A DNA stretch of 35,917 bases from Quinella sp. 2Q5 (GTDB lineage Bacteria > Bacillota > Negativicutes > Selenomonadales > Selenomonadaceae): assembly GCA_015206785.1 (NCBI GenBank), contig JADEZQ010000016.1, positions 1 to 35,917 of the forward strand, read 5' to 3'. The notes beneath the pieces are model-generated. The model did not search any database, was not told where the DNA came from, and worked only from the letters and a program-made list of their open reading frames with translations. The position numbers and the translations under genes were made by a program. This document shows, in pieces, positions 1 through 35,917 of the stretch (the stretch's first letter is position 1; every line of letters starts with the position of its first letter).

Positions 1-2
1 AC

Positions 3-299
3 GTCAACGACGTGCGAGACTTTTTAAGCGAGGGCGACACCGTTCGAGTCAAAGTCATCAACGTGGACGGCAACAAGATCGCGCTGTCACTCAAGCAGGC
101 AAAGCCCCGACCGCCCGAACAAGACGGGCAGTCTTTCAGGCAAAGGCGCGGAAATTTTCGCGGATCGCAACGGCAACTGTCGGCCTCATTCGAAGATAAG
201 CTGTCCAAATTCCTCAAAGACAGCGACGAACGCTTGACCGACCTCAAACGCAAAACCGATTCCAAACGCGGCGGGCGCGGCTCGCGTCGCTCGGACTGA
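3..299 (+). CDS. S1 RNA-binding domain protein (YabR-like), 3' part
   Basis: The reading frame is already open at the window edge, so the start is missing. The first third (FLSEGDTVRVKVINVD, then NKIALSLKQ) is the end of an S1 OB-fold, which binds single-stranded RNA. The rest is a basic, Arg/Lys/Ser-rich tail with a short predicted helix (FEDKLSKFLKDSDERLTDLK). Small S1 proteins of the YabR/general stress protein 13 type commonly sit just upstream of tilS-hpt-ftsH in Firmicutes, which fits the genes that follow. The exact role, probably in translation or RNA binding, cannot be read from the sequence. Confidence 0.8.
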   Translation, partial: VNDVRDFLSEGDTVRVKVINVDGNKIALSLKQAKPRPPEQDGQSFRQRRGNFRGSQRQLSASFEDKLSKFLKDSDERLTDLKRKTDSKRGGRGSRRSD

Positions 300-302
300 C
301 TG

Positions 303-331
303 CCCCTTGCACACGGCAGGGGGTGCTTTTT
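303..331 (+). terminator. Hairpin with T-run overlapping the tilS ribosome binding site
   Basis: CCCCTTGC (303-310) pairs with GCAGGGGG (316-323) through eight pairs, one of them G-U, around a five-base loop. Three bases later comes TTTTT (327-331). This looks like an intrinsic terminator for the S1 gene, although the T-run is short and offset. The right arm is also the only Shine-Dalgarno-like sequence for tilS, so folding could hide it. Confidence 0.45.
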
Positions 332-333
332 AA

Positions 334-1305
334 CTGCTGAAACGATTCATCGATATCTGCGCGGCAGAAAAAATTTTCGCCGGCGTCGGCAAAGTTCTTG
401 TCGCGGTATCGGGCGGCGCGGACTCTTTGGCTCTGGCGCAATTGCTGATTGATTCGCGGCGACGCTTCGGCGTGGAAGTTGCCATCGCACATTTCGAACA
501 CGGCTTGCGCGGTCAAGCTTCCGTCGAGGACGCGGCGTTCGTCAAAAATTTCTCGCACGAGCGTAACGTCGAATTCATCGGCGGCAACGGGGACGTTCGA
601 CAGTTCGCGGCGGCTGAAAAAATTTCCGTCGAGACTGCAGCCAGAATCGTGCGCTACGAGTTTTTGCGCGACGCCCGTCAACATCTGAACTGCGACGCCA
701 TTGCCACCGCCCACCACGCCGACGACCAGGCTGAGACGATTTTGATGCGGCTCCTGCGCGGCGCGACGACGGCGGGCTTGTCGGCAATGAAGTTGCGCAC
801 GTTCACCGAATACGGGCTGATTGTCCGCCCGCTGTTGAAATTCCGCAAGACCGAGCTGGAAAGTTTCTGCCGCAGAAAAAATCTGTCGCCGCGTGTGGAC
901 GCAACGAACTTCGTCCCCGACGCCACGCGCAACCGCATCCGCTTGGAGCTCATACCCGCGCTTGAAACGTTCAATCCCGCGACAGTCGAGACGCTTTGCC
1001 GCTTCGGGGCAGTCGCGGCGGACGAGACGGACTTCATCGACATGCAGACGGAAAAAATTTTCCCCGCCGTCGTCGTTGAAGGTGCCATCGTCCGCGCAGA
1101 GTTCATCAAGTTGCACAGCGCACTTCAACGAGCCGTCATCAAAAAATTTCTGGTGCACATCATCGGTTCGGCAAAGGATTTCGGCTTCATGCACATAGAC
1201 GGCGTGCGAAAGGTTTTGCTGAACAATCTTTCGGGCGTGGAGCTTCCGAAAAAACTTCGCGCCGACTTGAAACGAGGAAGACTCACCATCACGAATAACT
1301 TTTAA
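334..1305 (+). CDS. tilS: tRNA(Ile)-lysidine synthase TilS
   Basis: TilS uses ATP and lysine to convert the wobble cytidine of the CAU-anticodon tRNA(Ile) to lysidine, so that it reads AUA; the family is essential in most bacteria. The PP-loop ATP-binding motif SGGADS lies at residues 26-31 if translation begins at 334. The conserved HHADDQAETILMRLLRG segment follows near residue 130. No ATG, GTG or TTG lies between the in-frame TAA at 331-333 and the P-loop; the first standard codon is a TTG at 427, after the motif. The start is therefore best placed at CTG 334 (or 337), ten bases after AGGGGG. Length is about 323 residues, at the short end for the family. It is followed closely by hpt. Confidence 0.9.
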   Translation: MLKRFIDICAAEKIFAGVGKVLVAVSGGADSLALAQLLIDSRRRFGVEVAIAHFEHGLRGQASVEDAAFVKNFSHERNVEFIGGNGDVRQFAAAEKISVETAARIVRYEFLRDARQHLNCDAIATAHHADDQAETILMRLLRGATTAGLSAMKLRTFTEYGLIVRPLLKFRKTELESFCRRKNLSPRVDATNFVPDATRNRIRLELIPALETFNPATVETLCRFGAVAADETDFIDMQTEKIFPAVVVEGAIVRAEFIKLHSALQRAVIKKFLVHIIGSAKDFGFMHIDGVRKVLLNNLSGVELPKKLRADLKRGRLTITNNF

Positions 1306-1322
1306 CGAAAGGGTTGATTGCC

Positions 1323-1880
1323 ATGAAGAGCAAGGAAGATTACATCGAACGCGTGCTGTACACCGAGGAGGAGATTGCCGCCCGCGCCAAGGAGATCAGT
1401 GCGCAAATCAGCGAGGACTTCAAAGACATTGCCAAGCCCCTCTTGACGGTCGGCATCCTTAACGGCGCAGTCATGTTTTACACGGACGTTGTGCGGCGGC
1501 TGACCATCCCCGTGCAGTTTGATTTCCTGATCGCTTCCAGCTACGACGCCAACAGCCACTCCAGCGGCAAGGTCAACATTCTCAAAAACCTGGACAACGA
1601 CCCCAAAGGCCGCGATATCCTGCTCATCGAAGACATTATCGATTCGGGCACGACAATGAACTTCCTGATAGATTACTTCATGGACAAGAAGGCAAACAGC
1701 GTGAAGATCTGCACCCTGCTCAACAAGCCTTCGCGCCGCAAAGTCGACGTCAAAATCGATTACTGCGGCTTCGAAGTTCCCGACGAATTCATTGTCGGCT
1801 ACGGGCTGGACTTCGCGCAACATTATCGCAACCTGCCGTATCTGGGCATTCTCAAACGCAGCGTCTACGGCGGCAAATAA
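1323..1880 (+). CDS. hpt: Hypoxanthine phosphoribosyltransferase
   Basis: This 185-residue purine-salvage enzyme joins hypoxanthine or guanine to PRPP, giving IMP or GMP. The phosphoribosyltransferase signature DILLIEDIIDSGTT is at residues 98-111 and binds the ribose phosphate of PRPP. The C-terminal FIVGYGLDFAQHYRNLPYLG is typical of bacterial Hpt. ATG 1323 lies nine bases after AAAGGG; an in-frame TTG at 1314 abuts that site and is too close. Only 17 bases separate it from tilS and 24 from ftsH, so the three are probably co-transcribed, an order well known in Firmicutes. Confidence 0.95.
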   Translation: MKSKEDYIERVLYTEEEIAARAKEISAQISEDFKDIAKPLLTVGILNGAVMFYTDVVRRLTIPVQFDFLIASSYDANSHSSGKVNILKNLDNDPKGRDILLIEDIIDSGTTMNFLIDYFMDKKANSVKICTLLNKPSRRKVDVKIDYCGFEVPDEFIVGYGLDFAQHYRNLPYLGILKRSVYGGK

Positions 1881-1904
1881 TTCATCGGCAAAGGAGCGTT
1901 TTGA

Positions 1905-3800
1905 TTGAACAGTTTCATGCGCAACGTCGGGTTTTATCTGCTGGTGATCTTCATCGCGATAACTGCCTACGATTACTTTTCGGTTAAGCCCAAGCCCGTG
2001 GAAGAAACGAGCTATTCGCAGTTCCTTCAGCTGGTGGAAAAGGGCGACATCGCAAAGGTCGTGCTGACAAGGAACACGATTCAAGTCACCAAAAAAGACG
2101 GCGGCGAGTTCACCACGACAGCACCCGACGAGCCGATTGGCGACGAAACTCTTGTCGGAAAGCTCGAAGCCAAAGGAGTGGACATCATTGCGCAGAATCC
2201 GAAAGATCCGCCCTGGTGGATGACGCTCCTTACGTCGCTGTTGCCAATTGCGCTGCTTGTCGGTTTCTGGTACTTCATGATTAACCAGGCTCAGGGCGGC
2301 GGCGGAAAAGTTTTTTCTTTCGGCAAGAGCCGCGCCAAGATGATGGGCGGCGACAAAGTCAAAATCAAATTCACTGACGTGGCGGGCGCGGACGAGGCAA
2401 AGGAGGAGCTTGCCGAAGTCGTCGAATTCCTCAAGCACCCCAAAAAGTTCAACGACCTCGGTGCCAGAATCCCCAAGGGCGTGTTGCTGTTCGGACCGCC
2501 CGGCACCGGTAAAACGTTGCTCGCCAAGGCAGTGGCGGGGGAAGCGGGCGTCGCGTTCTTCTCAATCAGCGGCTCGGACTTTGTGGAGATGTTCGTCGGC
2601 GTCGGCGCAAGCCGTGTGCGTGATCTTTTTGCGCAGGCGAAGAAAAATTCCCCGTGCATAATCTTCATCGACGAGATTGATGCCGTCGGACGTCAACGCG
2701 GTGCTGTCGGCGGCGGCGGCCACGACGAACGCGAGCAGACGCTCAATCAGCTGCTCGTCGAGATGGACGGCTTCGCTGCCAACGAAGGCATAATCATCAT
2801 CGCCGCGACGAACCGACCGGATATCCTTGACCGCGCGCTGTTGAGACCCGGACGTTTCGACCGTCAAATCGTCGTCGACAAGCCCGACCTTACCGGACGC
2901 GTGGCGATTCTGCGCGTGCATACCAAGGGCAAGCCCATCGCCAAAGACGCCGACCTCGACATTCTCGCGCGGCGCACACCCGGCTTCACGGGCGCGGATC
3001 TGGCTAATCTCGTCAACGAAGCCGCACTGCTTGCCGCACGCCGCAATAAACACGAAATCAACATGACCGAGCTGGAAGAGTCAATCGAACGCGTGATGGC
3101 GGGGCCCGAACGCAAATCCAAAGTCATGAGCGACAACGAGAAGAAGCTCACCGCTTACCACGAGGGCGGGCACGCTCTGGTTGGAATGTTGCTCAAACAC
3201 GCCGACCCCGTCCACAAAGTCACAATCATTCCGCGCGGACGAGCCGGCGGTTATACGCTGATGTTGCCAAAGGAAGACCGAAGCTACGCCACGCGTTCGG
3301 AGCTGATTGACCGGCTCAAGGTTGCAATGGGCGGGCGCGTCGCCGAAGAAGTTGTCCTCAACGAAATTTCCACCGGCGCATCTCAGGACATTCAGCAAGC
3401 GAGCCAAATCGTTCGCGCAATGATTATGCAATACGGCATGAGCAACGTCCTCGGTCCCGTCGCATACGGCGGCGACCCCGCGCAACAATATTATTTCGGG
3501 CAGCCGCAGAAAAATTATTCGGAGGAAGTGGCGGGCGAGATCGACAAGGAGATTCATCGTTACATGCAAGAGGCGTACGAGGCTTGCCGCACAATCATCA
3601 ACGACAACCGCGACAAGCTCGACGCCATCGCCAAGGCTCTCATCGACAAGGAGACTTTGACGGCGCAGGAGCTCAAGGATATCGTCTTCGGCGTGCCGGA
3701 AATCGAACAGCCCTTCCAGAAAGATCCGCCCGTTGATCTGTCCAAGCCCGCGCCGATTGAACAGAAACTTCCCGACGACCCGACGCCGTCGCCCGTATAA
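1905..3800 (+). CDS. ftsH: ATP-dependent zinc metalloprotease FtsH
   Basis: FtsH is a membrane-anchored hexameric AAA+ protease that degrades damaged membrane proteins and some regulators. This 631-residue copy has a TM helix near residues 6-24, an extracytoplasmic segment, and a second TM after the WW pair near residue 105. The Walker A motif GPPGTGKT is at 197-204, then Walker B IIFIDEID and the second region of homology. The zinc site HEGGH is at 419-423, where the usual form is HEAGH; the His-Glu-x-x-His ligands are intact. The start is TTG 1905, eight bases after AAGGAG. The C-terminus ends in a Pro/Asp-rich tail. A probable terminator follows. Confidence 0.96.
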
Positions 3801-3818
3801 AAATTTTTTCGAGGAGTT

Positions 3819-3856: not shown

Positions 3857-3870
3857 GGAGGATGATCATC

Positions 3871-4866: not shown

Positions 4867-4875
4867 GGTGTCGGC

Positions 4876-6729
4876 ATGGCGAAGATTAAACTGCTCGACA
4901 CCGGCACCATCAACAAAATCGCGGCGGGCGAGGTCGTTGAACGCCCCGCTTCCTGCGTCAAAGAGCTCGTCGAAAATTCCATCGACGCGGGCGCACGTCG
5001 CATCGAAATCGAAATCCAGAACGGCGGCAAGGCTTTGATTCGCGTGACTGACGACGGCACGGGCATGAGCCGTGAGGACGCCGCGCTTGCCGTCCGCCGC
5101 CACGCCACCAGCAAACTTTCCACCGCCGCCGATCTTCAGCACATATCGACGCTGGGTTTCCGAGGCGAGGCTCTGCCGACGATTGCTGCCGTGTCAAAGT
5201 TCACCTTGCAGACGCGCCGCGCTGACGACGAATTGGGCACGCTCATCAAAATCGACGGCGGCTCCGTCATCGACACTCACGAGGTCGGTTGCAAGGTCGG
5301 CACCACGGTCATCGTCGAAGATCTGTTCTTCAACACGCCCGCCCGATTGAAGTTCCTTAAGGCGACGCCCGCCGAGGCGAACAAGATTTACGATTACGTC
5401 GTCAAGCTCGCGATTAGCCGCCCCGACGTCGCGTTCCGCTTCGTCAACGGCAACCGAACCGCCATCGCCACGCCCGGCAACGGCAAGCTCACCGACACCT
5501 TGAGCGCGATTTACGGCACCGAGCTGACCGATTCGCTGTTGACCGTCAAACGCGACGGAGACGATTTGAAACTGTCGGGCTTCGTGACCAAGCCGAACGT
5601 CGTCAAGAGTCATCGCTCCTGGCAAACGTTCATCGTCAACGGGCGCGTGGTCGAAAGCCGCACCATCGCCAAAGCACTTGACGAAGCATATCGTTCGCTC
5701 GTCGCGAAGAACGGCTTCCCCTTCGCCGCGCTGATTATCGAGGTGCCGCAGACTTCCATCGACGTCAACGTTCACCCGCAGAAGATTGAGCTCAAGTTTG
5801 ACGACGACGGAAAAATTTTCAAGACGGTTTGGCACGCCGTGCGCGAGGCTGTCGAAGGCAAAGTTTACGGCGAACACAAGCTGACCGAGGTTGCCGCCGC
5901 GCCTGAAGCACCGCGCTTCGAACAGTTCACGTTGGGCGAGGACTTCCAAGAAATTTCTCCGCCGCCGAAAAAAATTCCTGAGCGCAAAAAAAATCCCCGC
6001 GACGATTTCGACTTCGAGCGGGTGCTGACGACCGTCACCGAGGCAAAAAAATTTTCATCGTCCGCCGACGTTCGCCCTGCCGAAAAAATTTCCGAGCCCG
6101 CCGACGACGTTCGCCCCGCAAAAAAAATTCCGCCGCCCGTTCAACAGCCCGCCCTTGAGCTTGAACCCATCGGGCAGGTGGCGCGCTGTTATGTCGTGGC
6201 GCAGGACGAGCATGACTTGTACATCATTGACCAGCACGCCGCGCACGAACGCGTTCTCTTCGACAGGCTGAGCTCTTATGCCGAACGAGTGCCCGCGCAG
6301 GGTTTGCTGATCCATCGCGTGATGAAGTTCGACGCACGAGAGAGCGAGCTCATCGAAAAAAATTTGGCGGTCTTCGCGGATTTGGGCTTCACTATGGAAC
6401 CGAGCGGCGCGGGCGAATTCCGACTGATTGAGCTGCCCGTGGACGCCGCCGACACCGACGCAGAGGATCTTTTGCGCGGAATATTGGCGGAGATTTTCAG
6501 CGGCGTGGACGAGTCCGACGACATTGCAAAAAAAATTCGCCGCGCGGTGCTCTCAACGACGGCGTGCAAAGCGGCAATCAAGGCTGGGTGGGAACTGAAC
6601 CTGCGGCAGATGCAAATCCTGCTCAACGATCTGTCGCGGACGGCGCACCCGCACACTTGCCCACACGGACGCCCGACCATCATAAAATTTTCGGCGGACG
6701 ACCTGGCAAAGATGTTTAAGCGTACATGA
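4876..6729 (+). CDS. mutL: DNA mismatch repair protein MutL
   Basis: MutL couples mismatch recognition by MutS to strand incision. The N-terminal GHKL ATPase is complete: INKIAAGEVVERPASCVKELVENSIDAGA region, DDGTGM, and TLGFRGEAL. Residues about 340-430 form a Pro/Lys-rich linker. The C-terminal domain has the endonuclease motif DQHAAHERVLFD starting at residue 452, ACKAAIKAG, and CPHGRP at 595-600, so it is a nicking MutL as in Bacillus rather than the E. coli type. The last acidic position of the DQHA(x)2E(x)4E motif is Asp (D463) rather than Glu. Length is 617 residues. No mutS is in the window, and miaA or hfq, which often follow mutL, are absent. Confidence 0.96.
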   Translation: MAKIKLLDTGTINKIAAGEVVERPASCVKELVENSIDAGARRIEIEIQNGGKALIRVTDDGTGMSREDAALAVRRHATSKLSTAADLQHISTLGFRGEALPTIAAVSKFTLQTRRADDELGTLIKIDGGSVIDTHEVGCKVGTTVIVEDLFFNTPARLKFLKATPAEANKIYDYVVKLAISRPDVAFRFVNGNRTAIATPGNGKLTDTLSAIYGTELTDSLLTVKRDGDDLKLSGFVTKPNVVKSHRSWQTFIVNGRVVESRTIAKALDEAYRSLVAKNGFPFAALIIEVPQTSIDVNVHPQKIELKFDDDGKIFKTVWHAVREAVEGKVYGEHKLTEVAAAPEAPRFEQFTLGEDFQEISPPPKKIPERKKNPRDDFDFERVLTTVTEAKKFSSSADVRPAEKISEPADDVRPAKKIPPPVQQPALELEPIGQVARCYVVAQDEHDLYIIDQHAAHERVLFDRLSSYAERVPAQGLLIHRVMKFDARESELIEKNLAVFADLGFTMEPSGAGEFRLIELPVDAADTDAEDLLRGILAEIFSGVDESDDIAKKIRRAVLSTTACKAAIKAGWELNLRQMQILLNDLSRTAHPHTCPHGRPTIIKFSADDLAKMFKRT

Positions 6730-6752
6730 AGTTTTTTGCCGCAGACAGCGGC

Positions 6753-6900: not shown

Positions 6901-7977
6901 CGTCAGCAACTCGGCGGCAAGCTTCGCGTTCAGGCGGGCACTGTCGCCGAGTTTTTTTAGTAGCGCACCGTCCGTTGAATTTCGTGGCGTGTAAAGTTTC
7001 GTCATTGCTTCGGAAAAAATTTTGTCGGCGGTGACTGAGGAGAGCGTACCCGAAATTTTTTCGCCGACCGAATCGAGGAACCGTTCAATCTTCGGGTCGT
7101 AGGAGATGCCCAACATCGGCACGCCCATGAGCCCCGCGAAAATCAGCGCGTGCAGCCTCACGCCAATCAGGACGTCCATGCACCCGACGAGGCTGAGGAT
7201 CTCGCGCGTGGAAAATTCTTCGTCGAGCACGGCGGCGGGCGTAGTCATCAGCGCGGCGACGTCGCGGGCGGCGCGTATGTCTTCGGGGAATTTCATCGGC
7301 AGGAAAATAATTTTGGCGGCGGTCTCTTCAGCCAGATGGTCGAGGGCGGCGGCGAGTTCGCGTTGAAAATTTCCGCTGTCCGCCCAATGACGAATGGCGA
7401 CGCCGACAAGTTTTCCGCCTTCGGCAACCGAATGTCGCGCCAGAATTTTTTTGCCGATGTCGAGCGGCGCGGGTCTCATGGCGAGCACGGGGTCTGCCGT
7501 CAAAAAAATTTTCGGGCGGGTGATGTTGAGCCGTTCGAGTTCCGCCAATGAGCCGCGGTCGCGCACGGTGATCAAGTCCACGCGGTTGACGATAAGCTCC
7601 GTCAGCTTTCGGGCGAAGGTGCCGCGGATGGGGCCGATGCCTTGCGCGTAGAGCATGACCTTGCAACCGAAGGCGAGCGCAAAAAAAATTATCGCCAGGT
7701 AGTAATACAGGCTGCGCCCGCTGGTGACGTTCTGCAACAGGGAACCGCCGCCCGAAATGAGCAAGTCCGCCGCGCGGATTTTTTTTATGATGGCGCAAAT
7801 GTCCGGCCGTTCCAATGCATCAACGCCGTGACGGTGCCGCGTGTATTCGGGGTCAATGGAAATGACGCTGACGCGCAGGTCTGCAATCTCTTCGCGCAGA
7901 ACCTGTAGCATCGCCGCGAGCATCGCCTCGTCGCCGCCGTTCTTGGAGCCGTAGTAGCCGGAAATCACAATGTTCAT
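6898..7977 (-). CDS. csaB: Polysaccharide pyruvyl transferase CsaB
   Basis: CsaB adds ketal-linked pyruvate to a cell-wall polysaccharide, which in many Gram-positive and Negativicute-like bacteria serves as the anchor for S-layer-homology domains. This 359-residue protein begins MNIVISGYYGSKNGGDEA, the glycine-rich N-terminus typical of CsaB. It also shows ISGGGSLLQ, ADPVL, and the C-terminal GVRLHALIFAGLMGVPMLGISYDPKI. A longer frame runs upstream, but ATG 7977 has GAGGT just before it and begins at the conserved N-terminus. It stands alone, convergent with mutL and divergent from the TlpA-like gene. The acceptor polysaccharide is not known from the window. Confidence 0.9.
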   Translation of the reverse strand: MNIVISGYYGSKNGGDEAMLAAMLQVLREEIADLRVSVISIDPEYTRHRHGVDALERPDICAIIKKIRAADLLISGGGSLLQNVTSGRSLYYYLAIIFFALAFGCKVMLYAQGIGPIRGTFARKLTELIVNRVDLITVRDRGSLAELERLNITRPKIFLTADPVLAMRPAPLDIGKKILARHSVAEGGKLVGVAIRHWADSGNFQRELAAALDHLAEETAAKIIFLPMKFPEDIRAARDVAALMTTPAAVLDEEFSTREILSLVGCMDVLIGVRLHALIFAGLMGVPMLGISYDPKIERFLDSVGEKISGTLSSVTADKIFSEAMTKLYTPRNSTDGALLKKLGDSARLNAKLAAELLT

Positions 7978-8110: not shown

Positions 8111-8650
8111 TTGACGAGAAAATTTTTTGCCGCGCTGATGGTTGCGGCAGTGCTGATGACCGGTTGCGGTGATGAGTCTGCCGACTCCAACGAGAGCGTG
8201 ACCAATGAGCAAGCGTCGCCCGTCGCCGCGAAGGTGCCCGCCTTCAGCGCAAAGACCGTCGACGGCGAGACCGTGACTCAAGAAATTTTTGCCGAGAAGA
8301 AAATCACGATGGTGAACATCTGGGGGACATTCTGCCCGCCGTGCATTGGCGAGATGCCTGAGCTTGGCGAGATGGCTCGTTCATTGCCCGACGACGCACA
8401 GATTATCGGGCTGGTGTGCGACGCGACGGATGGTTCGCCGGAAATTCAGAAGGCGCGGGAAATTTTGTCGAAGGCGGACGCTGACTTCGTGAACATCATT
8501 CCCAACGCCGAGCTGCTCAAGTTCATGGAGGGCGTTGAAGTTGTGCCGACGACGATTTTCGTCAACAGCCGCGGCGAAGTCGTTGGCAAAACAATTCTCG
8601 GCGCGGACATCAAGGGCTATCACGCACAGCTGGAGCAACTGCTCAAATGA
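8111..8650 (+). CDS. TlpA/ResA-like thioredoxin-fold lipoprotein
   Basis: This 179-residue protein begins MTRKFFAALMVAAVLMTGC, a signal peptide ending in a lipobox with C19 as the lipidated residue. It is therefore tethered outside the cytoplasmic membrane. The thioredoxin fold follows, with WGTFCPPC and the redox cysteines C75 and C78, and the cis-proline segment VVPTTIFVN. Such proteins reduce or exchange disulfides on exported proteins. TTG 8111 is chosen because AAGGAGA is nine bases upstream; the in-frame ATG at 8102 abuts that site. Its TGA overlaps the next ATG by one base. With the two downstream genes it forms a translationally coupled redox unit. The protein substrate is unknown. 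Confidence 0.88.
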   Translation: MTRKFFAALMVAAVLMTGCGDESADSNESVTNEQASPVAAKVPAFSAKTVDGETVTQEIFAEKKITMVNIWGTFCPPCIGEMPELGEMARSLPDDAQIIGLVCDATDGSPEIQKAREILSKADADFVNIIPNAELLKFMEGVEVVPTTIFVNSRGEVVGKTILGADIKGYHAQLEQLLK

Positions 8651-8772: not shown

Positions 8773-9590
8773 TGCGGCGGCTGATTCAGTTGGCGGCGAC
8801 GGTGCTGACCAATCCGCATGCGGCGAACTTTTTGGGCGGCAGGATTTATCGCGGCGGGCTGAAAAATTTTTGTGCGCCCGGTCTGAACTGCTGGTCGTGC
8901 CCCGCGGCGACGTTGAGCTGTCCCCTCGGCGCAATCCAAACGATGAGCTTCTACGCGGCGGGTTGCACGTTGCTAATCGGGCTGTTGTTGGGGCGGATGG
9001 TCTGCGGCTTCCTGTGCCCGTTCGGATTTTTGCAGGAGCTGCTGAACAAAATCCCCGCGCCGAAATTTTCTCTGCCGCGACGACTGACGCGCGTGAAATA
9101 TTTTCTGCTGGCGATGTTCGTGCTGATTGGTCCGGTCCTCACGGAATTGAACGCGCCGACCTTCTGCCAGTACATCTGCCCCGCAGGCACGCTCGAAGCC
9201 GGTTTGCCGCTCATTGCCGCGCACGAAGACCTTCGCAATCGCCTCGGCTCGCTGTTCGCGCTGAAGGTGACGATTCTTGCGGCGGTGATTGTCGGCAGCG
9301 TCCTCGTCCACAGATTCTTTTGCCGCGTGATGTGCCCGCTCGGTGCCGTCTATGGTCTGCTGAACCGTTGGAGCTTTTGGCGGCTGAACTTTGCGGCGGA
9401 CAGGTGCGTCGGTTGCGGCAGATGCCGACAAGCTTGCCCGATTGAATTGGATCCGACGCGCGAAGTTAATTCCGCCGAATGCGTGCGCTGTGAACGTTGC
9501 GTCGAAGCCTGTCCCACGGGAGCTTTGACCTGCCACACACCGCCCGTTAAATTTCCGTTAAAACGCCCGCCGACAGTTGACGGCTCATAA
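8772..9590 (+). CDS. Membrane 4Fe-4S polyferredoxin, NapH/YccM-like
   Basis: This 272-residue protein combines membrane helices (near 62-80, 108-126 and 163-181) with many cysteines. C-x3-CP motifs occur at CGFLCPFG (C78, C82), CQYICPAG (C132, C136) and CRVMCPLG (C184, C188), as in NapH, YccM and NosR. An N-terminal group has C34, C40, C43 and C50. Two classic ferredoxin sites follow at C212-C222 and C237-C247. It is expected to move electrons from a cytoplasmic donor across or into the membrane. The ATG at 8772 overlaps the previous stop; an upstream in-frame start would extend back through the miniprotein gene and is rejected. The likely partner is the TlpA-like lipoprotein. Confidence 0.87.
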   Translation: MRRLIQLAATVLTNPHAANFLGGRIYRGGLKNFCAPGLNCWSCPAATLSCPLGAIQTMSFYAAGCTLLIGLLLGRMVCGFLCPFGFLQELLNKIPAPKFSLPRRLTRVKYFLLAMFVLIGPVLTELNAPTFCQYICPAGTLEAGLPLIAAHEDLRNRLGSLFALKVTILAAVIVGSVLVHRFFCRVMCPLGAVYGLLNRWSFWRLNFAADRCVGCGRCRQACPIELDPTREVNSAECVRCERCVEACPTGALTCHTPPVKFPLKRPPTVDGS

Positions 9591-10119: not shown

Positions 10120-10148
10120 TTGAAAAATTTTTTCCGCGCGAATATAAT
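10120..10148 (+). promoter_or_regulatory. Sigma-70 promoter of pcrA
   Basis: TTGAAA (10120-10125) and TATAAT (10143-10148) are separated by 17 bases, a near-consensus promoter in the short gap after the MarR gene. Confidence 0.7.
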
Positions 10149-10174: not shown

Positions 10175-12397
10175 TTGGACGAGCAATTTTTTTTTGACAC
10201 GGAAAAAATTTTCGGCGGGCTTAATCCCAAGCAACGCGAGGCAGTTAATTGCCTCAACGGACCGCTGTTGGTTATGGCGGGTGCGGGCTCCGGCAAGACG
10301 CGCGTTTTGACTTGCCGCATTGCCAATTTGATTGCGCAGGGGATTGCGCCGTGGAATATTTTGGCGATAACCTTCACCAACAAGGCAGCCAATGAGATGA
10401 AGTCCCGCGCCGCCAAAATGATTGGCGAGAGTGCCCGCGAGGTTTGGCTGAGCACGTTCCATTCGTTCTGCGCACAAATTCTGCGCCGCGAAATCGACAT
10501 CACCGACAAGTTCAAGCGCAACTTCGCCATCTACGACGCGAGCGACAGCAAGGCTCTCGTCAAGCAATGCGTCAACGAATTGAAGCTGTCGGCGGAACTT
10601 TTTGCCAACGCCAACGCGGGGATATCCGCCCTGAAAAACGATTTGGTTAGCGTGGACGCGTTCAAGGAGCGGTCATTGAATCGCAGCGTGTACTTCAAGA
10701 ACCTTGCCATGATTTACGAGATGTACCAAAATCGCCTGCAACAGAACAACGCGCTTGACTTCGACGACCTGATATTCTTCACCGTGAAAATTTTCAGCGA
10801 CTACCCCGAAGTTTTGGAGAGATACCGGGAGCGTTTCCAATACATTTTGATTGACGAGTATCAAGACACGAATGCCGCGCAGTACGAGCTGACCAGGCTT
10901 TTGGCGGCGAAATACAAGAACATCTGCGTTGTCGGGGACGCCGACCAATCGATTTACGGCTGGCGCGGCGCGGACATGCGCAACATCATGAACTTTGAAC
11001 GCGATTATCCGAAGGCGACCGTTGTCCTTTTGGAGCAGAATTATCGTTCGACCAAGACCATCTTGCGGGCGGCAAACGCCGTCATTGCCAACAACGACGA
11101 CCGCATTCCCAAAAACCTTTGGACGCAAAACGACGGCGGCGAGAGAATCAAGCTCATCGTCTGCGAAAGCGACCGACAAGAGGCGCAGCTTGTGGCTAGG
11201 GAGATTCGCAGGCTGGTTGAGTACGAAAACTTCCGCTACGACGAAATTGCGTTGCTCTATCGCATGAACGCCCAATCGCGCCCGTTCGAAGAATACTTCA
11301 TGCAGATGGAGATACCCTACGTCATTGTCGGCGGGCTCAAGTTCTACGACCGCAAGGAGATCAAAGACATTCTCGCCTATCTGCACGTCATTGCCAACCC
11401 GAACGACAGCGTGCACCTGCGGCGGATAATCAACACGCCGCGGCGCGGGCTCGGTCAAGTCAACGTGAACAGGCTGATGGAATATGTCGAGGACGAGGGG
11501 ATTTCGTTCTTTGAGCTGGTGACCGACATGAATCGCCTGCTGATGGTGCCGGGGCTGACGCAACGCTTCCGCAACGGCATTAGGAACTTCGCGGCAATGA
11601 TGATGAGTTTCATGGAGTCCGCCAAAACTTTGCCCGTACACAAGCTGATTCAGACCGTGCTGGACGAGACGGGCTACATGGACGCCTTCAAGACCGACGA
11701 CGCCGACGAGAGCAAAAATCACACCGACGACGCCCGCGAGGAGAACTTGGGCGAGTTCATCAACAGCGCAAAGGCTTTCGTTCAGCTCAATTCCGAAGCC
11801 ACGGTGCAAGACTTCCTCAATCACGTCGCGCTTATCAACGACACGGACGCCGTCGCGGACAAGGAATCGCGCGTCAAGCTGATGACTGTCCATTCCGCAA
11901 AGGGGCTGGAGTTCCCCGTTGTGTTCGTCGTGGGCATGGAGGAAAAAATCTTTCCGCACGGCAGTGCTCTCGATACCCCCGAAAAGCTCGAAGAGGAACG
12001 CCGCGCTTGTTATGTCGCTTTGACCCGCGCAGAGAGGAAACTTTACATCACCGCCGCCGCAACCAGAATGTTCTTCGGCGAGATGCTCAAGCAGAAGGTT
12101 TCGCGCTTCGTGGACGAGATGCCCGCCGATTGCATGGAGAGCCACGGCTACCTCCCCGAACGCCGCCCCGTGCCCCAAGTCGGCAAATTGCCCGCCCGTC
12201 ATGTTGCGCCGAAAAAATCTGCACCGACGCAGAGAACGCGCACCGATTGGAATGTCGGCGACCAAATCAATCACAAACTCTGGGGGCTCGGCACCGTCAT
12301 GGACGTCGGCAACGTCAACATCACCGTGCAGTTCGCCAATCCCCAGGTCGGCGTCAAGAAGCTCGCGGTCAAGGTCGCGCCGATTACAAAAATTTGA
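10175..12397 (+). CDS. pcrA: ATP-dependent DNA helicase PcrA/UvrD
   Basis: This 740-residue superfamily 1A 3'-5' helicase acts in nucleotide excision repair, mismatch repair and removal of RecA from DNA. Walker A GAGSGKT is at 36-42, LAITFTNKAANEMK is motif Ia, DEYQDT at 227-232 is motif II, and GDADQSIYGWRGA is motif III. Motif IV is LEQNYRS; motifs V and VI are MTVHSAKGLEFPVVFVVG and YVALTRAERKLYI. The C-terminal part resembles the PcrA polymerase-binding tail (GDQINHKLWGLGTV). TTG 10175 follows AGGGGG by eight bases; upstream in-frame codons lie within the promoter. It is followed after 14 bases by ligA, a pairing common in Firmicutes. Confidence 0.95.
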   Translation: MDEQFFFDTEKIFGGLNPKQREAVNCLNGPLLVMAGAGSGKTRVLTCRIANLIAQGIAPWNILAITFTNKAANEMKSRAAKMIGESAREVWLSTFHSFCAQILRREIDITDKFKRNFAIYDASDSKALVKQCVNELKLSAELFANANAGISALKNDLVSVDAFKERSLNRSVYFKNLAMIYEMYQNRLQQNNALDFDDLIFFTVKIFSDYPEVLERYRERFQYILIDEYQDTNAAQYELTRLLAAKYKNICVVGDADQSIYGWRGADMRNIMNFERDYPKATVVLLEQNYRSTKTILRAANAVIANNDDRIPKNLWTQNDGGERIKLIVCESDRQEAQLVAREIRRLVEYENFRYDEIALLYRMNAQSRPFEEYFMQMEIPYVIVGGLKFYDRKEIKDILAYLHVIANPNDSVHLRRIINTPRRGLGQVNVNRLMEYVEDEGISFFELVTDMNRLLMVPGLTQRFRNGIRNFAAMMMSFMESAKTLPVHKLIQTVLDETGYMDAFKTDDADESKNHTDDAREENLGEFINSAKAFVQLNSEATVQDFLNHVALINDTDAVADKESRVKLMTVHSAKGLEFPVVFVVGMEEKIFPHGSALDTPEKLEEERRACYVALTRAERKLYITAAATRMFFGEMLKQKVSRFVDEMPADCMESHGYLPERRPVPQVGKLPARHVAPKKSAPTQRTRTDWNVGDQINHKLWGLGTVMDVGNVNITVQFANPQVGVKKLAVKVAPITKI

Positions 12398-19836: not shown

Positions 19837-19862
19837 TGGTGCCGAAAAATTTTTCAGCGCAC

Positions 19863-23579: not shown

Positions 23580-24461
23580 TCAGAAGAAAGTGATCCACAC
23601 CAGCTCAGCCTTGTCGACCAGAGTCGGCGTCAGCTCGTCGAGATTTTCTATTGCGGCGAAGTGCCAACGGTTCTGCTCGTCGCGGCGAAAGGCAAGCTCA
23701 AACGTCAGCCGCCCGATGAATTGCCCGCGCAGGGAATTGTCGCCGTTCACGTCGAGCACGACGGTCGCGCGGTCGCCTTCGGTGCGGGTTTCGGTGACGG
23801 TGACGTCGGCGGCTTGGCGAAGCAATTCAAACTCGTTGGCGACGTACGCGGCGGGATCGTCCTGTGGGATGTCGGGCGCGGGAATTTTCGCGAAGTAAGC
23901 GGCGGCAACTCCGTCGATGAACTTCAGATGGCGCGTCTTGTGTTCGGCGTTGTAAGCGGTCAGAAATTCCGCGCTGTGTTGGAAGTACGGGTCGTCGGGA
24001 TATTTGGCGCGATAGGCGTCGTAATTTTTGGCGAGCTCAACGGTTGCGGCGTCGTAGGTGGCGGCAAAGAATTCGTCGACGTCCACGCGCTGTGAAAGTT
24101 TTGCAGCGTCGCGTTCGGCGAGAGCGGTCTTGATGTCGTTGAGCGCGGCCTCAGGCGTATCGTCGGGTGCACAGCCCGCCAAAAAAATCACCGCCGACAG
24201 AATCAGCGGCAGAAAAATTTTTGTCGCAACATCACGAATCGCACAAACCGGATGCAACGTCACGTTGCCCGCCGACAGAATCAGCGGCAAAAAAATTTTT
24301 GTCGCAACATCACGAATCGCACAAACCGGATGCAACGTCACGTTGCCCGCCGACAGAATCAGCGGCAGAAAAATTTTTGTCGCAACATCACGAATCGCAC
24401 AAACCGGATGCAACGTCACGTTGCCCGCCGACGGAATCAGCGGCAGAAAAATTTTTCGCAT
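23580..24461 (-). CDS. Putative lipoprotein with tandem-repeated signal region
   Basis: The protein is 293 residues. ATG 24461 is six bases after GAGGTGA. The first 90 residues are three copies of a 26-residue unit plus a final partial copy: each has the hydrophobic core KIFLPLILSA (KIFLPLIPSA in the first) followed by a polar segment GNVTLHPVCAIRDVAT. The last core continues VIFLAGC, a lipobox with C97 as the lipidation site. Without the repeats this would be an ordinary short lipoprotein signal. The mature domain (about 195 residues, PEAALNDIKTALAERDAAKL then VDVDEF) resembles DUF2939/DUF4878-like extracytoplasmic domains, weakly. Whether the extended signal still works is unclear. It lies between pdxK and trpE in the same run. 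Confidence 0.7.
   Translation of the reverse strand: MRKIFLPLIPSAGNVTLHPVCAIRDVATKIFLPLILSAGNVTLHPVCAIRDVATKIFLPLILSAGNVTLHPVCAIRDVATKIFLPLILSAVIFLAGCAPDDTPEAALNDIKTALAERDAAKLSQRVDVDEFFAATYDAATVELAKNYDAYRAKYPDDPYFQHSAEFLTAYNAEHKTRHLKFIDGVAAAYFAKIPAPDIPQDDPAAYVANEFELLRQAADVTVTETRTEGDRATVVLDVNGDNSLRGQFIGRLTFELAFRRDEQNRWHFAAIENLDELTPTLVDKAELVWITFF
24192..24456. repeat. 78-bp tandem repeat array
   Basis: Units begin at 24192, 24270 and 24348, with a 31-base partial unit at 24426, exactly 78 bases apart. Copies are almost identical: one G/A difference in the second and one A/G in the last. Each holds an A5T5-like tract and the imperfect palindrome GCAACGTCACGTTGC. Because 78 is a multiple of three, copy-number changes keep the frame of the lipoprotein gene that contains it. 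Confidence 0.95.
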
Positions 24462-27500: not shown

Positions 27501-27506
27501 AATTTT

Positions 27507-29507: not shown

Positions 29508-29519
29508 CGGAGGGACATC

Positions 29520-30707
29520 ATGGGAAAGCTAATCGTTCATCAGGACAAGATTCAGGACGTCGCCGCGCTGGTCAAGATTTGTCCCTTCGGCGCAATGGAG
29601 AATCGCAACGGCAAGCTCGAAATCAACGCCGCCTGTCGCCTGTGCAAACTCTGCGTCAAACGCGGCAAAGGCGTCTTCGAGTTCGTCGAGACTGAAGCCG
29701 CCGTCGGTGTCGACAAATCTGCTTGGCGCGGCATTGCGGTTTACGTTGACCACGCGGACGGCAAGATTCACCCCGTCACCTTTGAACTTATCGGCAAGGC
29801 AAAAGATCTCGCCGCCAAAATCAATCAGCCCGTGTACGCAATTTTTATCGGCGCGGACATCAATCACCAGGCGCGGGAACTTCTTCATTACGGCGTGGAC
29901 AAAGTCTACGTCTGCGACAAGAATGAGCTTCGCGCCTTCAACATCGAGAACTATGCGGCGGCCTTCGCGGCGTTCATCAGCACGGTGAAGCCCGCGGCAA
30001 TTCTGGTCGGAGCCACGCCCGTCGGTCGACAGCTTGCGCCGAGGGTGGCGGCTCGTTTCCGCACTGGGCTCACAGCTGATTGCACCGTCCTCGACATCCG
30101 CGAGAACACTGACCTTGTGCAAATTCGTCCGGCTTTCGGCGGCAACATCATGGCGGAGATTCTCACGCCTCATCATCGTCCGCAAATGGCAACCGTGCGC
30201 TACAAGATCATGGACGCGCCCTCTCGTCTCGACGAAATTTCCGGCAGCATCGTTTCATTGGAAGTCGACGAGTTCACGAGCCGCGTCGAAGTTTTGAGCG
30301 TGACTCGCAAGCCGAAGGAAATCGGCATAGAAAACGCTGACGTGCTGGTTGTTGCCGGTCGCGGCGTAAAGAAGAAGGAAGACCTTCAACTGATTCGCGA
30401 GCTTGCCGAAGTTTTGAACGGCGACTTCGCTTGCACGCGTCCTCTGGTTGAAGGCGGCTGGTTGGAGCCCAAGCGGCAGATCGGTCTTTCGGGGCGCACC
30501 GTCCGCCCAAAGCTCATCATAACCTGCGGCGTGTCGGGTTCCGTGCAATTCGTCGCGGGCATGGAGCATTCCGAACAAATCTTCGCCATCAACACCGACC
30601 CGAAGGCTTCGATATTCAAAGTCGCCAACTATGCCGTCGTGGGCGATTTGTACGAAATCATTCCGAAGCTGATTGCCAAGATTAAGCAGGGGAGGATCAT
30701 CGCATGA
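29520..30707 (+). CDS. etfA: Electron transfer flavoprotein alpha subunit with 4Fe-4S domain (LctC-like)
   Basis: This 395-residue protein is longer than ordinary EtfA because of an N-terminal ferredoxin-like domain. Its cysteines C21, C39, C42 and C45 could hold one 4Fe-4S cluster. The EtfA N-domain follows from about residue 70. The FAD-binding C-domain has [33 protein letters not shown] and [21 protein letters not shown]. The iron-sulfur domain is found in lactate dehydrogenase/Etf complexes, though its direct role is uncertain. ATG 29520 follows GGAGGG. Its end overlaps the next start as ATGA. Confidence 0.92.
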
Positions 30708-32107
30708 GCAACTACAATCGGCTGACCGAGCAGGATTTGGCGACAATCGCCACGTTCCTTGACCGCGGGCGCATTCTCTGGCGCGACGAGATTAACGAGG
30801 AATACAGCCACGACGAACTGACCGCTGAACGTTCCTATCCGGATTTGGTGGCGCGTGTCGTCTCAACGCAGGAAGTCTCGAAGATTTTGGCTTATGCCAA
30901 CGAACGGCGAATCCCCGTGACGCCGCGCGGCGCAGGCACCGGTCTCGTCGGGGCAGCCGTCGCCATCGAACGGGGCATTATGATTGACACGACGCTGATG
31001 AATCATATCCTTGAGCTTGACGAGGAAAACTTGACGCTCACCGTGGAACCCGGCGTGCTGATTATGACGTTGCGTGCCTACGTGGAGGAGCGCGGTTACT
31101 TCTATCCGCCCGACCCCGGCGAAAAATCCGCGACCATCGGCGGCAACATCAGCACCAACGCGGGCGGCATGACCGCTGTCAAATACGGCGTCACTCGCGA
31201 TTTCGTCCGCGGGCTTGAAGTCGTTTTGGCGGACGGAACGATTCTTGAACTCGGCGGCAAAGTCGTCAAGAACAGTTCGGGCTACGACCTCAAGAACATG
31301 ATCGTCGGCTCGGAGGGGACGCTCGCTTTCATCACGAGGGCGACACTTCGTCTGGTGCCGCTGCCCAAGTGCAACATCAGCCTGCTCATTCCCTTCCCGA
31401 CTCTGGCTCAGGCAATCCGCACCGTGCCGCTCATCATCAAATCCAAAGCCGTGCCAACCGCCATTGAATTCATGGAGCGCGAAGTCATCTTGGACGCGGA
31501 AGAATATCTCGGCAGGAAGTTCCCCGACAATCAGGCGGACGCGTATCTTCTGCTGAAATTTGACGGCAACACCAAAGAGGAAATCGCCAAGTACTACGAC
31601 GACGTCGCTCAGATTTGCCTTGAGCAGGGCGCGATTGATTTGCTCATTGCCGACACGCAGGAGCGCAGCGATCCCGTGTGGAAGACGCGCGGCGCGTTCC
31701 TTGAGGCTATCAAAGGCACGACGACCATGATGGACGAGGTTGATGTTGTCGTTCCCCGCAACCGCGTCAACGACTTCGTCGAGTTCGTGCACGCCCTGCG
31801 CGAGGAGATTGGCATCCGCATAAAATCTTTCGGGCACGCCGGCGACGGCAATCTTCACGTCTACATTCTTCGCGACGACTTGCCCGAAGACACCTGGCAC
31901 GAGCTTTTGAACGAGGCGATGAATCGTATGTACGCCAAAGCCCGCTCACTCAAGGGGCAGGTCTCCGGCGAACACGGCATCGGTCTGGTCAAGCAGCCGT
32001 ATCTGAAGGACTCATTGCCCGCGACGAGCCTTGCGATTATGCGCGGCGTGAAAAAAGTTTTCGACCCGAATAACATCTTGAACCCCGGAAAAATTTTTTG
32101 CGCGTGA
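30704..32107 (+). CDS. lctD: FAD-linked lactate dehydrogenase, GlcD/LctD type
   Basis: This 467-residue flavoprotein would oxidise D-lactate (or another 2-hydroxy acid such as glycolate) to the 2-oxo acid. The PCMH FAD domain has [32 protein letters not shown] and [19 protein letters not shown]. The C-terminal cap has [12 protein letters not shown] and [10 protein letters not shown], which carry the metal and substrate residues of this family. It overlaps etfA by four bases, so the three subunits are made together. With EtfBA it forms the confurcating lactate dehydrogenase. GlcD-type glycolate oxidase is the alternative, but the neighbours favour lactate. Confidence 0.9.
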
Positions 32108-32127
32108 AAGATTTCGGGAGGACGAAG

Positions 32128-33396: not shown

Positions 33397-33398
33397 AG

Positions 33399-33428
33399 TT
33401 GCAGACAAGCAGCGGCAGGTGCTATAAT
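33399..33428 (+). promoter_or_regulatory. Promoter of the nudix gene
   Basis: TGCTATAAT (33420-33428) is an extended -10; TTGCAG (33399-33404) is 18 bases upstream as a possible -35. It starts just after the larA remnant stop. Confidence 0.6.
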
Positions 33429-33459
33429 GGCGGAAAAATTTTTTTGAGGAGCGATAACG

Positions 33460-34685: not shown

Positions 34686-34690
34686 ATGTC

Positions 34691-34734
34691 AAATCCTGCT
34701 CAAGGTCTGATACCGTCGAGCAGGATTTTTATTT
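34691..34734 (+). terminator. Intrinsic terminator shared by the M50 and TetR genes
   Basis: AAATCCTGCTC (34691-34701) and GAGCAGGATTT (34718-34728) pair perfectly over 11 bases, followed by TTATTTT. The T-rich tail is on the plus strand. The TetR stop codon (34700-34702) lies in the left arm, so the same hairpin sits at that gene's end. Confidence 0.8.
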
Positions 34735-35290
34735 TCAGGCGGATATTTTCTTGGAACGAGATGTTCAGCTTGCTGAATGCCGTCGTCTGATAAATCGAAT
34801 GCACCATCTCGGAAATGATGTTGCCCGGCACGTCGGCGCGGAATTCGCCGCACAGCTGTCCGCGCGTGATGATCTCTTCGAACATTTCGCCGAAGCCCGG
34901 TGACAGACTGCGCGGGATTTGTTCGGGCTTATCGGAGTGTTCGCCCGCGCTGATGAATAGCGGCAGGATGAATCGGTTTTCGTCGATGACTTTCGCCGTG
35001 CACGCGCAACACCGTTCCAAAAGTTCGAACGACGACTGATTGACCGTGCCCGCCGCAGAAATTTCGACTTCGACTTCCTCGCGCAGGTTCCGTGCCAAAG
35101 TCAACAGCACCTCTTCCTTGGAGGCGAAGTAGTTGTAGAACGTGCCGACGCCGAGCCCTGCCGCCTGCATGATGAGCGCGATTGACGTGTTGGCGAAGCC
35201 GTGCGCCTCGAACATTTTGGCGGCGGCGTTCAGGATTGTCTGCCGTGCCTGAAATTTTTTCCGCGTCCTCAAGCCGATTGCCTCTGCCAT
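34700..35290 (-). CDS. TetR/AcrR-family transcriptional regulator
   Basis: This 196-residue protein has an N-terminal helix-turn-helix: ARQTILNAAAKMFEAHGFANTS, then IMQAAGLGVGTFYNYFASKEEVL with the TFYNYF recognition helix. The C-terminal ligand domain is variable and does not show the inducer. TetR proteins mostly repress neighbouring or divergent genes. No divergent partner is seen here, since the next gene upstream is on the same strand. ATG 35290 follows GAGGGGG. It has a good promoter of its own. Confidence 0.88.
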   Translation of the reverse strand: MAEAIGLRTRKKFQARQTILNAAAKMFEAHGFANTSIALIMQAAGLGVGTFYNYFASKEEVLLTLARNLREEVEVEISAAGTVNQSSFELLERCCACTAKVIDENRFILPLFISAGEHSDKPEQIPRSLSPGFGEMFEEIITRGQLCGEFRADVPGNIISEMVHSIYQTTAFSKLNISFQENIRLKIKILLDGIRP

Positions 35291-35322
35291 TGTCGCGCCC
35301 CCTCGAAAAATTTTCTGCCGTC

Positions 35323-35351
35323 ATTATACAAACTGCGCGGGTTTTGCACAA
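35323..35351 (-). promoter_or_regulatory. Promoter of the TetR gene
   Basis: Minus-strand TTGTGC (35351-35346) and TATAAT (35328-35323) are 17 bases apart, 33 bases before the start codon. Confidence 0.65.
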
Positions 35352-35360
35352 ATGCTTGCG

Positions 35361-35394
35361 AAAAAAAATCCCTCGACCGATGTCGGGGGATTTT
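35361..35394 (-). terminator. Intrinsic terminator of the repeat-protein gene
   Basis: On the minus strand AAAATCCCCCGACA pairs with TCGAGGGATTTTTTTT around a short loop, ending in a T8 run. It is almost the same hairpin as at 19863-19895. Confidence 0.75.
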
Positions 35395-35409
35395 CCGTTG
35401 ACGAAAGTT

Positions 35410-35894
35410 TTACTGCACGTTCATGGAAAGCTCGATGAATTTGTTGGAAAGGCGCGCGCGTTGCAGGACGTCTTCGGTGACTTCCGCGCCCGCTTCGACG
35501 ATGATGGTGCCGCTCTCGGCGGTGATGGTCTTGGTTGCGTGTTTGCCGAGCAGTACGCGGCGGCGGCGTTCGTCAACTGCCTTCTCGACCTGCTTCTTTT
35601 GCGAGAGCTGCGGTTCGAGCGGCGGCGTCGGTTCGGGTGATTTGCGTTTGCTTGCGCGAGCCTTCTGCAATGCCGCCTTCAAGTCTTCCGCCTGCTGAGT
35701 CATTGACGCGATCTTCTGCTCCTCTTCGGTGAGCTTTTTCTTCGAGGCGGACTTCGGTGCTTGGACGGGCGGTGTCTCGACGACGGGTGTCTCGACGACG
35801 GGCGGTGTCTCGACGACGGGTGTCTCGACGACGGGCGGTGTCTCGACGGGCGGCGTCTCGATGACGGGCGGCGTCTCAATGACGGGCGGTGTCT
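35410..35894 (-). CDS. Pro/Thr/Val/Glu-repeat protein, C-terminal part
   Basis: The frame is open to the contig end, so the start is missing; about 160 residues are seen. Before the adapter boundary comes a low-complexity region of ETPPV, ETPPVV and ETPVV units (35764-35894), then a Lys/Glu-rich, probably coiled or extended stretch (KKKLTEEEQKIASMTQQAEDLK). The C-terminal 50 residues contain GKHATKTITAESGTIIVEAG followed by EDVLQRARLSNKF. This resembles the ends of PRC-barrel-type proteins annotated in Negativicutes, but I am not certain. An internal ATG at 35703 is unlikely to be the true start. Confidence 0.65.
35764..35894. repeat. Short degenerate tandem repeats coding ETPPV units
   Basis: GACGGGCGGTGTCTC and GACGGGTGTCTC variants alternate, in 12- to 18-base steps. 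All steps are multiples of three, so the frame is kept. The array runs into the contig end. Confidence 0.85.
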
Positions 35895-35917
35895 AGATCG
35901 GAAGAGCACACTCTGAA
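35895..35917 (+). other. Illumina adapter remnant at the contig end
   Basis: AGATCGGAAGAGCACAC is the first 17 bases of the TruSeq read-1 adapter; TCTGAA then continues it with one G missing. This is not genomic sequence. Confidence 0.95.

Follow-up and report, generated by a model that had tools for sequence, protein, structure and literature searches.

Excess and 19.6-bp register of AnTn tracts in the genome of Quinella sp. 2Q5

In the genome of Quinella sp. 2Q5 (GenBank assembly GCA_015206785.1; G000 below), short tracts consisting of a run of A followed by a run of T (AnTn) are present in large excess, and their spacing follows a register of 19.6 bp. The AnTn excess is genome-wide and typical of the genus, whose members are uncultured relatives of Selenomonas. 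The register belongs to the DNA, not to the message or the protein; it ignores gene borders and reading frame, and is carried mainly by synonymous codons, with a smaller share due to amino-acid order. The stretch under study is contig JADEZQ010000016.1 (hereafter the window, at its full length of 35,917 bp), which is contig 6 of the 42 in a 1.82-Mb assembly with 79% completeness. Tracts were counted as A3+T3+ with a length of at least 7 bp, a palindromic, strandless class. In-gene statistics of G000 were obtained from a sample of 403,751 bases (22% of the assembly; GC 55.8%; 363 called genes). Genes were called with our own simple caller, and gene names were assigned by reading the translations, not by family searches.

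Tract excess, codons and amino acids

The window (GC 57.0%) contains 55 copies of AAAATTT, 61 of AAATTTT and 40 of AAAATTTT, which merge into 76 sites, in agreement with the roughly 75 reported in an earlier note on this DNA. The chance expectation near one given there is also of the right order (0.77 + 0.74, about 1.5 in total, under an order-0 model); a first-order Markov model gives about 5.3 for each 7-mer. Most sites had been placed in genes, and 64 of the 76 indeed lie inside called genes, with 12 outside. The sites had further been described as often extended to a 13-mer; this does not hold, because exact GAAAAAATTTTCG occurs only twice in the window. The excess in genes is real, but its distribution is uneven: 9 of the 33 called window genes, including hpt, ftsH, tsaD, queF and etfA, have no tract. 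The FtsH peptide IFIDEID is coded ATC TTC ATC GAC GAG ATT GAT, as had been stated. The peptides read from the window tracts include EKIS, KNF, EKIF, GKIF, ENF and KKIF, among many others.

In the 404-kb sample, 623 tracts were found in genes versus 148.7 ± 8.5 after 30 within-gene synonymous shuffles, so that the excess survives the codon-preserving control proposed in the earlier note. For AAAAATTTTT in genes the figures were 78 versus 6, and TTTAAA was depleted (10 versus 25). The enrichment grows with both arms, up to about 15-fold at A5T5, and is greatest from arm lengths of about 5 upwards; short TnAn combinations are depleted. Among all words in genes, those furthest above the synonymous shuffle were AAAATT, AAATTT and AAAAAT for 6-mers and AAAAATTT, AAAATTTT and AAAAAATT for 8-mers. 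The tract centre falls on each of the three codon positions, in 332, 146 and 145 cases.

It had been suggested that the codons are chosen for the DNA and not for the protein. The first half stands: Ile is ATT in 91% of 131 K-I-F versus 29% of 163 [AGDVLR]-I-F, and 94% of the 89 Asn codons flanked by AAA and TT are AAT. The second half holds only in part, because the amino-acid sequence is shifted as well and its order carries part of the phasing. KIF occurs 131 times versus 20.3 expected from the amino acids (6.4-fold) and 45.2 from dipeptides, and KNF 79 times versus 12.6 and 27.2, respectively; EKI is also in excess, whereas the reversed tripeptide FIK is not (16 versus 20 expected). In a Selenomonas control KIF shows no excess (3 versus 3.1; small numbers).

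Other words depart from the synonymous shuffle in the genes of G000. GATC is depleted (774 versus 1599), and GGCC-containing words and GGCGCC are strongly depleted (GGGCCC, 2 versus 37). These depletions look as if they were caused by restriction pressure.

The excess persists outside the window: the whole assembly holds 552 AAAAATTTTT versus 0 of the reversed control TTTTTAAAAA. In a survey of 151 genomes of the family, all 28 genomes of the same genus held 208-1725 AAAAATTTTT (reversed control, 0-117) and the 123 genomes of 29 other genera held 2-145; these between-genome counts are raw and carry no correction for base composition. By LarA protein (81-83% identity), the closest named relatives found are metagenome genomes, namely Selenomonadaceae of sheep omasum and rumen, and a Selenomonadales bacterium; the window itself may also be of rumen origin. 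Among 77 comparison loci of other genomes, the genes of L002-L006, of which four or five may be congeners, held 134 tracts versus 49.7 after shuffling; the genes in the Selenomonas loci (74 kb) were not enriched in tracts (8 versus 10.6 after shuffling).

Around mutL, most relatives have 2-8 tracts per kb, and a subclade of four (loci L130, L131, L132 and L134 of G202, G169, G182 and G180; support 100/99) has only 0.4-0.6 per kb at a GC of 0.50-0.52. The trait seems to have weakened there, even if G169 retains 263 AAAAATTTTT versus 14 reversed. In the 30 MutL orthologues, the linker is filled with EKIS, EKNF or EKIF blocks in many species. A preferential placement of tracts in unconserved protein was considered and rejected: the marked columns of MutL are 0.715 conserved versus 0.665 overall, and 8 of the 14 columns marked in at least 5 species are at least 90% conserved.

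The excess by itself could come from a context-dependent mutation or repair bias that makes and lengthens AnTn, with the register as a by-product of a replication or repair template of about 20 bp. A word bias that varies in strength across the genus, a tract density higher outside genes (4.58 per kb, 161 sites) than inside (1.68 per kb, 621 sites) in the G000 sample, and species with the word and no register all agree with such an origin. It would, however, need to act on AnTn and not on TnAn, to raise Lys-Ile-Phe, and to hold the spacing in register for 300 bp, gene borders included, and we consider it decidedly unlikely.

The 19.6-bp register

Distances between tract centres in G000 cluster near 19, 38, 57, 77, 97, 117, 136 and 156 bp, with gaps between. 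This register was first spotted by inspection and was tested afterwards in other genomes, by jitter and by shuffles. On a power scale with an expected value of 1, the loose tracts reached 179.7 and the strict tracts 61.3, whereas 100 jittered copies of each set went no higher than 14.0 and 10.8, respectively; the best period of the loose tracts was 19.58 ± 0.05 bp (bootstrap). The best loose-tract power was 104 for distances of 12-100 bp, 82 for 100-200 bp and 24 for 200-300 bp, and power at 19.6 bp was 2.4 for 300-400 bp, i.e., coherence extends to about 300 bp. Seventeen of 20 G000 stretches of at least 7 kb (window included) had their own maximum at 19.1-20.2 bp. The AA/TT spectrum of G000 also peaks at 19.6 (in this and all other AA/TT spectra, tandem repeats were kept in), the A+T fraction around tracts oscillates between about 0.40 and 0.48 at the register period, and a weaker 19.5-bp peak of A+T remains with all A2+T2+ tracts masked. 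The dominant period thus lies outside 9.5-11.5 bp (power of 1.3-5.2 at 10.5 bp versus 20-118 at 19.6 bp; two loose classes, distances up to 300 bp).

Tandem duplication was rejected as the source of the register, as only 7 of 435 strict pairs in G000 have similar flanks and their removal changes the power from 61.3 to 57.3; after dropping similar-flank pairs, the values were 176 for loose (n = 1589) and 57 for strict tracts (n = 428). Start codons were likewise rejected as an anchor (R2/n = 0.77).

With tandem repeats and similar-flank pairs kept in, same-gene distances were equally periodic in the three mod-3 classes (power 51, 44 and 45), and power was 17 within spacers, 24 from gene to spacer and 7 between different genes of the same strand (n = 89); pairs of genes on opposite strands were too few to read (n = 11). 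Ten synonymous shuffles lowered the mean cosine from 0.358 to 0.13, removing about two thirds, and ten codon-order shuffles lowered it to 0.02; thus, the codons carry most of the register and the amino-acid order carries the rest. A cause at the protein level, with repeats or secondary structure favouring K-I/N-F at regular residue steps, would explain the excess of KIF, KNF and EKI, the existence of 39-bp and 78-bp tandem repeats and the residual cosine of 0.13. We nevertheless regard it as extremely improbable, as 19.6 is not a codon multiple, the frame classes are equally periodic, the spacers are periodic too, similar-flank removal changes little in G000, and synonymous shuffling takes away most of the mean cosine.

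A recognition mark, namely an uptake sequence, a methylation site or a highly iterated palindrome of the HIP1 type, would need only many copies. The tract is palindromic, genic, clade-specific and protein-altering, in likeness to HIP1 and uptake sequences (PMC4390886, PMC1939737; here and below, statements on cited papers refer to the accessible parts of their texts). However, its length is variable instead of forming one fixed word, and the register common to the loose tracts and AA/TT is neither needed nor predicted by uptake, methylation or recombination, which makes this explanation very unlikely.

In the window, five phased arrays of at least 4 loose tracts were found, versus a mean of 0.44 and a maximum of 3 in 500 jittered copies. 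One of the five is a 78-bp tandem repeat, which forms the N-terminal part of a hypothetical gene (window 23580-24461) with 98% matching and one long AnTn per unit; its unit length conforms to the register. The features of the window are as follows (strand in brackets where a feature has one; gaps are in multiples of 19.6 bp).

1..35917: all 76 A3+T3+ tracts (at least 7 bp), 64 of them in called genes
5953..6127: phased array of 5 loose tracts, mutL around the linker; gaps 1.07, 3.93, 1.89, 1.99
7215..7445: phased array of 5 loose tracts, csaB-like gene; gaps 3.83, 1.02, 3.01, 3.88
12698..12798: phased array of 4 loose tracts, ligA; gaps 2.04, 0.97, 2.09
13867..14023: phased array of 4 loose tracts, ligA; gaps 3.11, 3.88, 0.97
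24191..24456 (-): 3.4 tandem copies of a 78-bp unit (about 4 x 19.5), with a long AnTn tract every 78 bp (four in all), hypothetical gene
368..377: AnTn tract, 10 bp
1052..1061: AnTn tract, tilS, TEKIFP
3799..3809: AnTn tract, 11 bp, ftsH end / spacer
6045..6055: AnTn tract, mutL linker, EAKKFSS
7502..7512: AnTn tract, csaB-like gene, PKIFLT
8119..8128: AnTn tract, near the start of a tlpA-like gene
8862..8871: AnTn tract, ferredoxin-like gene, LKNFCA
10123..10133: AnTn tract, spacer before pcrA
10203..10212: AnTn tract, pcrA, TEKIFG
13861..13871: AnTn tract, ligA, AKKIFG
14170..14181: AnTn tract, 12 bp, ligA, EKKIFD
15321..15331: AnTn tract, start of a hypothetical gene, MKKFFA
18526..18535: AnTn tract, murE, PEKILD
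19845..19854: AnTn tract, spacer
20137..20147: AnTn tract, spermidine-synthase-like gene, DEKIFDT
20212..20221: AnTn tract, spermidine-synthase-like gene, IGKIFPA
23527..23538: AnTn tract, 12 bp, trpE start, MKKIFPT
32089..32099: AnTn tract, end of a glcD-like gene, PGKIFCA
33434..33445: AnTn tract, 12 bp, spacer before a nudix gene
1905..3798 (+): contrast region, ftsH, 1.9 kb without a tract
29520..30707 (+): contrast region, etfA, 1.2 kb without a tract

A separate 33-bp tandem repeat lies near the contig end (window 35764-35886), and an overlapping 18-bp row runs to 35894.

For the relatives, spectra were calculated from samples of 24-404 kb from 17 genomes of the genus. The loose-tract spectrum was maximal at 19.6-20.0 in 7 of them (G000, G179, G148, G181, G196, G015 and G096), and the AA/TT spectrum peaked at 19.4-20.4 in 10, namely the same seven, G156, G152 and, weakly, G165; the pooled AA/TT value of G152 and G165 was 5.7, above the 4.6 that 60 block shuffles reached at most. 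In whole assemblies (66 genomes of the genus), pairs of AAATTT were counted at in-phase centre spacings of 37-41 bp versus 28-32 and 47-51 bp. The counts were 114/23/28 for G000, 244/86/84 for G181, 301/132/152 for G148 and 638/213/261 for G179 (tandem repeats included), and 571/568/629 for G108, without an in-phase excess. The test was significant after Bonferroni correction (p < 0.05) in 13 of the 66, and the in-phase class was the highest of the three in 45. The tract excess and the register are therefore separable, because G108, G013 and G171 are tract-rich without a 19.6-bp peak; base composition also affects the sensitivity for the register between genomes. On the mutL tree (30 genomes), an in-phase ratio of at least 1.3 was clustered, with 7 changes (as few were obtained in 11 of 500 shuffles), although not in one clade.

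None of the 77 loci of other genomes, possible congeners included, exceeded a power of 5.8 in the band 18.9-20.3, the Selenomonas samples showed no 19.6-bp register, and 100 kb of E. coli K-12 analysed by the same method gave no 19.6-bp signal, its top AA/TT peak being at 10.3 bp.

In G179, 58 of 238 strict pairs share similar flanks and are all spaced by multiples of 39 bp, the unit of a repeat; their removal lowers the power from 80.5 to 37.0 with the period unchanged. At L111:15967-17272, this genome holds a 39-bp unit (2 x 19.5) in an array of 33.5 copies, and 13-residue blocks of the type PEKISEPVKKSS recur in its MutL linker. A named sheep-omasum relative shows a strong 10.2-bp AA/TT periodicity at L002:12001-18000 (power about 20) without tandem repeats, perhaps due to a coiled-coil gene or to a one-turn version of the code.

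A possible architectural code

AnTn without a TpA step is a classical narrow-minor-groove block. Such blocks placed 19.6 bp apart would be separated by two helical turns at 9.79 bp per turn, below the 10.5 of free B-DNA, and a wrapping protein might touch the minor groove at every second turn. Relative to 10.3-10.5 bp per turn, a value of 9.79 would by simple calculation give one left-handed superhelical turn per about 145-200 bp, and hence about two superhelical turns over the 300 bp of coherence. The narrow minor groove of A-tracts is also treated in PMC2843746, and periods below 10.5 bp were linked to solenoidal wrapping on proteins by Lehmann et al. (PMC4132750); a period below 10.5 bp per turn thus favours contact with a wrapping protein. 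That the genome-wide AnTn pattern is a nucleoid architectural code, in which a wrapping protein contacts the blocks at every second turn, has in our judgement slightly less than an even chance of being right. The earlier note had listed a nucleoid-protein or bending site among possible roles, and the 19.6-bp register favours this role, the protein step being inferred. More tentatively, we propose a bacterial code resembling nucleosome positioning, in which AnTn every 19.6 bp would direct left-handed wraps, about two turns per 300-bp array, on a special-use HU or another protein, and selection would dictate codons and insert Lys-Ile-Phe and Lys-Asn-Phe; this version is possible and on balance doubtful.

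Protein-free DNA shape has most of this model in common. Phased AnTn would bend or stiffen the DNA and set the supercoil geometry, as proposed for 10-11 bp phasing; AnTn over TnAn fits the general rules of intrinsic bending, the register is coherent to about 300 bp, and an 11-bp AT-tract "structural code" was published for cyanobacteria (PMC4132750). However, two turns would measure 21 bp in relaxed and about 22 bp in plectonemic DNA, not 19.6 bp. At 19.6 versus 21 bp, bends would rotate by about 48 degrees per step, so that planar curvature cancels, and the power at 10.5 bp is low. We therefore consider intrinsic shape alone unlikely, if worth keeping in view.

HU is perhaps the wrapping protein, as the only architectural family found in the genus. 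It was found in 56 of 65 genomes of the genus, in single copy in 43 of these. The sequences of 30 genomes (one each) are ordinary HU-like, two with short acidic tails, and by eye the register species are not obviously separable from the others among them. Because HU is widespread in bacteria without the pattern, such as E. coli, a control in the HU search, it would need a changed binding mode or a partner. Three tandem HU genes lie at G003:C54:33502-34410 (L156), and the one examined has an acidic C-terminal extension. The search for AT-hooks was uninformative, as the controls themselves gave no match. A scan for small basic or RGR/GRP proteins among the 363 called proteins (22% of G000) yielded no clear candidate: the five small basic proteins comprised three ribosomal-looking and two hypothetical ones, and the two RGR/GRP matches were in FtsH and a formate-ligase-like protein.

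A number of results weigh against the architectural code and the generality of the pattern. As for the protein, HU was not found in G000 itself, a 79% complete assembly; H-NS was found in 0 of 65 genomes and Lsr2 in 0 of 31, many of these assemblies being incomplete, with one control genome matched for each; and the histone fold (PF00808) was found in 0 of 31, with three archaeal controls matched, a search that divergent bacterial histones could escape. As for the word, the genus member G007 has a ratio of only 121:27 (from another draw), within the range of other genera, a mild AnTn > TnAn occurs in some other genera of the family (g18, 48:1 and 58:0; g29, 76:6 and 67:7; g44, 109:10), and the Selenomonas control has KNF 6 versus 1.7 and EKI 13 versus 5.1 (small numbers). 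As for the register, strict tracts peak in the band in only 5 of the 17 genomes (G000, G179, G181 and G015 at 19.6-19.8; G148 at 20.25); G003, G004, G006, G010, G013, G108 and G171 have no 19.6-bp peak in samples of 25-60 kb, several of them being tract-rich; the genes of L002-L006 are tract-rich and show no register peak; 53 of the 66 assemblies fail the stringent test; of the 77 foreign loci, L044 alone has a maximum within the band, and a weak one (19.7, power 2.9); and in G000 the loosest-tract power is still 7.0 at 1200-2000 bp and not down to 1. Finally, a mutL register shared across species was not seen when tested on tracts unique to one species: their best period was 10.2 bp with 16 species and 14.7 bp with 30, and a handful of hot positions dominated. 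Because the MutL tracts are not in unconserved columns and the unique tracts share no register, the nucleoid reading becomes slightly weaker and the mutation bias slightly stronger.

Whether bacteria write the packaging of their chromosome into the sequence is an old question, so far argued mainly from 10-11 bp signals. In one genome the present signal is very strong; its period is precise and unlike those earlier ones, and it varies within the genus and shapes the choice of codons and amino acids. It looks as if the chromosome carries a packing code that also shapes proteins. Given these species differences and coding effects, the question can be tested by comparing register-positive with register-negative species, a natural screen for the responsible protein.

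Comparison with known systems

The PATCs of C. elegans have a period of 10 bp, and a DNA-uptake sequence has a fixed non-palindromic core word, unlike the palindromic class of variable length found here. The present pattern shares with the PATCs a register of An/Tn runs (PMC7725773), but those lie in non-coding nematode DNA, whereas ours is bacterial, largely coding and of 19.6 bp. HIP1, the highly iterated palindrome of cyanobacteria, is likewise a short clade-specific palindrome in coding and non-coding DNA; it is, however, a fixed GC-rich word (GCGATCGC) linked to methyltransferases (PMC4390886), in contrast to a variable-length A/T tract with a register. The abundant A-tract oligonucleotides of bacteria are similar as over-represented words and were explained by the narrow minor groove together with packaging proteins, HU among them (PMC2843746), but they are homopurine/homopyrimidine, have exceptions at high G+C, and are presented in the accessible text without a long-range register.

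No report of a genome register of about 20 bp was found in the accessible literature, which treats 10-11 bp and in which few subscription papers could be reached; judging from titles and abstracts, mentions of periods of about 20 bp concern DNA cyclisation kinetics or are mostly clinical, and none concerns the periodicity of genome sequences. PMC3431218 normalises its spectra over 5-20 bp and accepts peaks only at 9.5-11.5 bp. The closest system is the 10-11 bp periodicity of A-tracts (PMC4132750, PMC3431218, PMC7537859), which is also a register of A/T runs at the DNA level, mainly synonymous, coherent over at least 100 bp and proposed as a nucleoid code; here, the period is 19.6 bp (two turns), the carrier is the AnTn palindrome, and amino acids are shifted too. 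The pattern is of a known kind, an A-tract structural code, from which it departs in its period near 19.6 bp.

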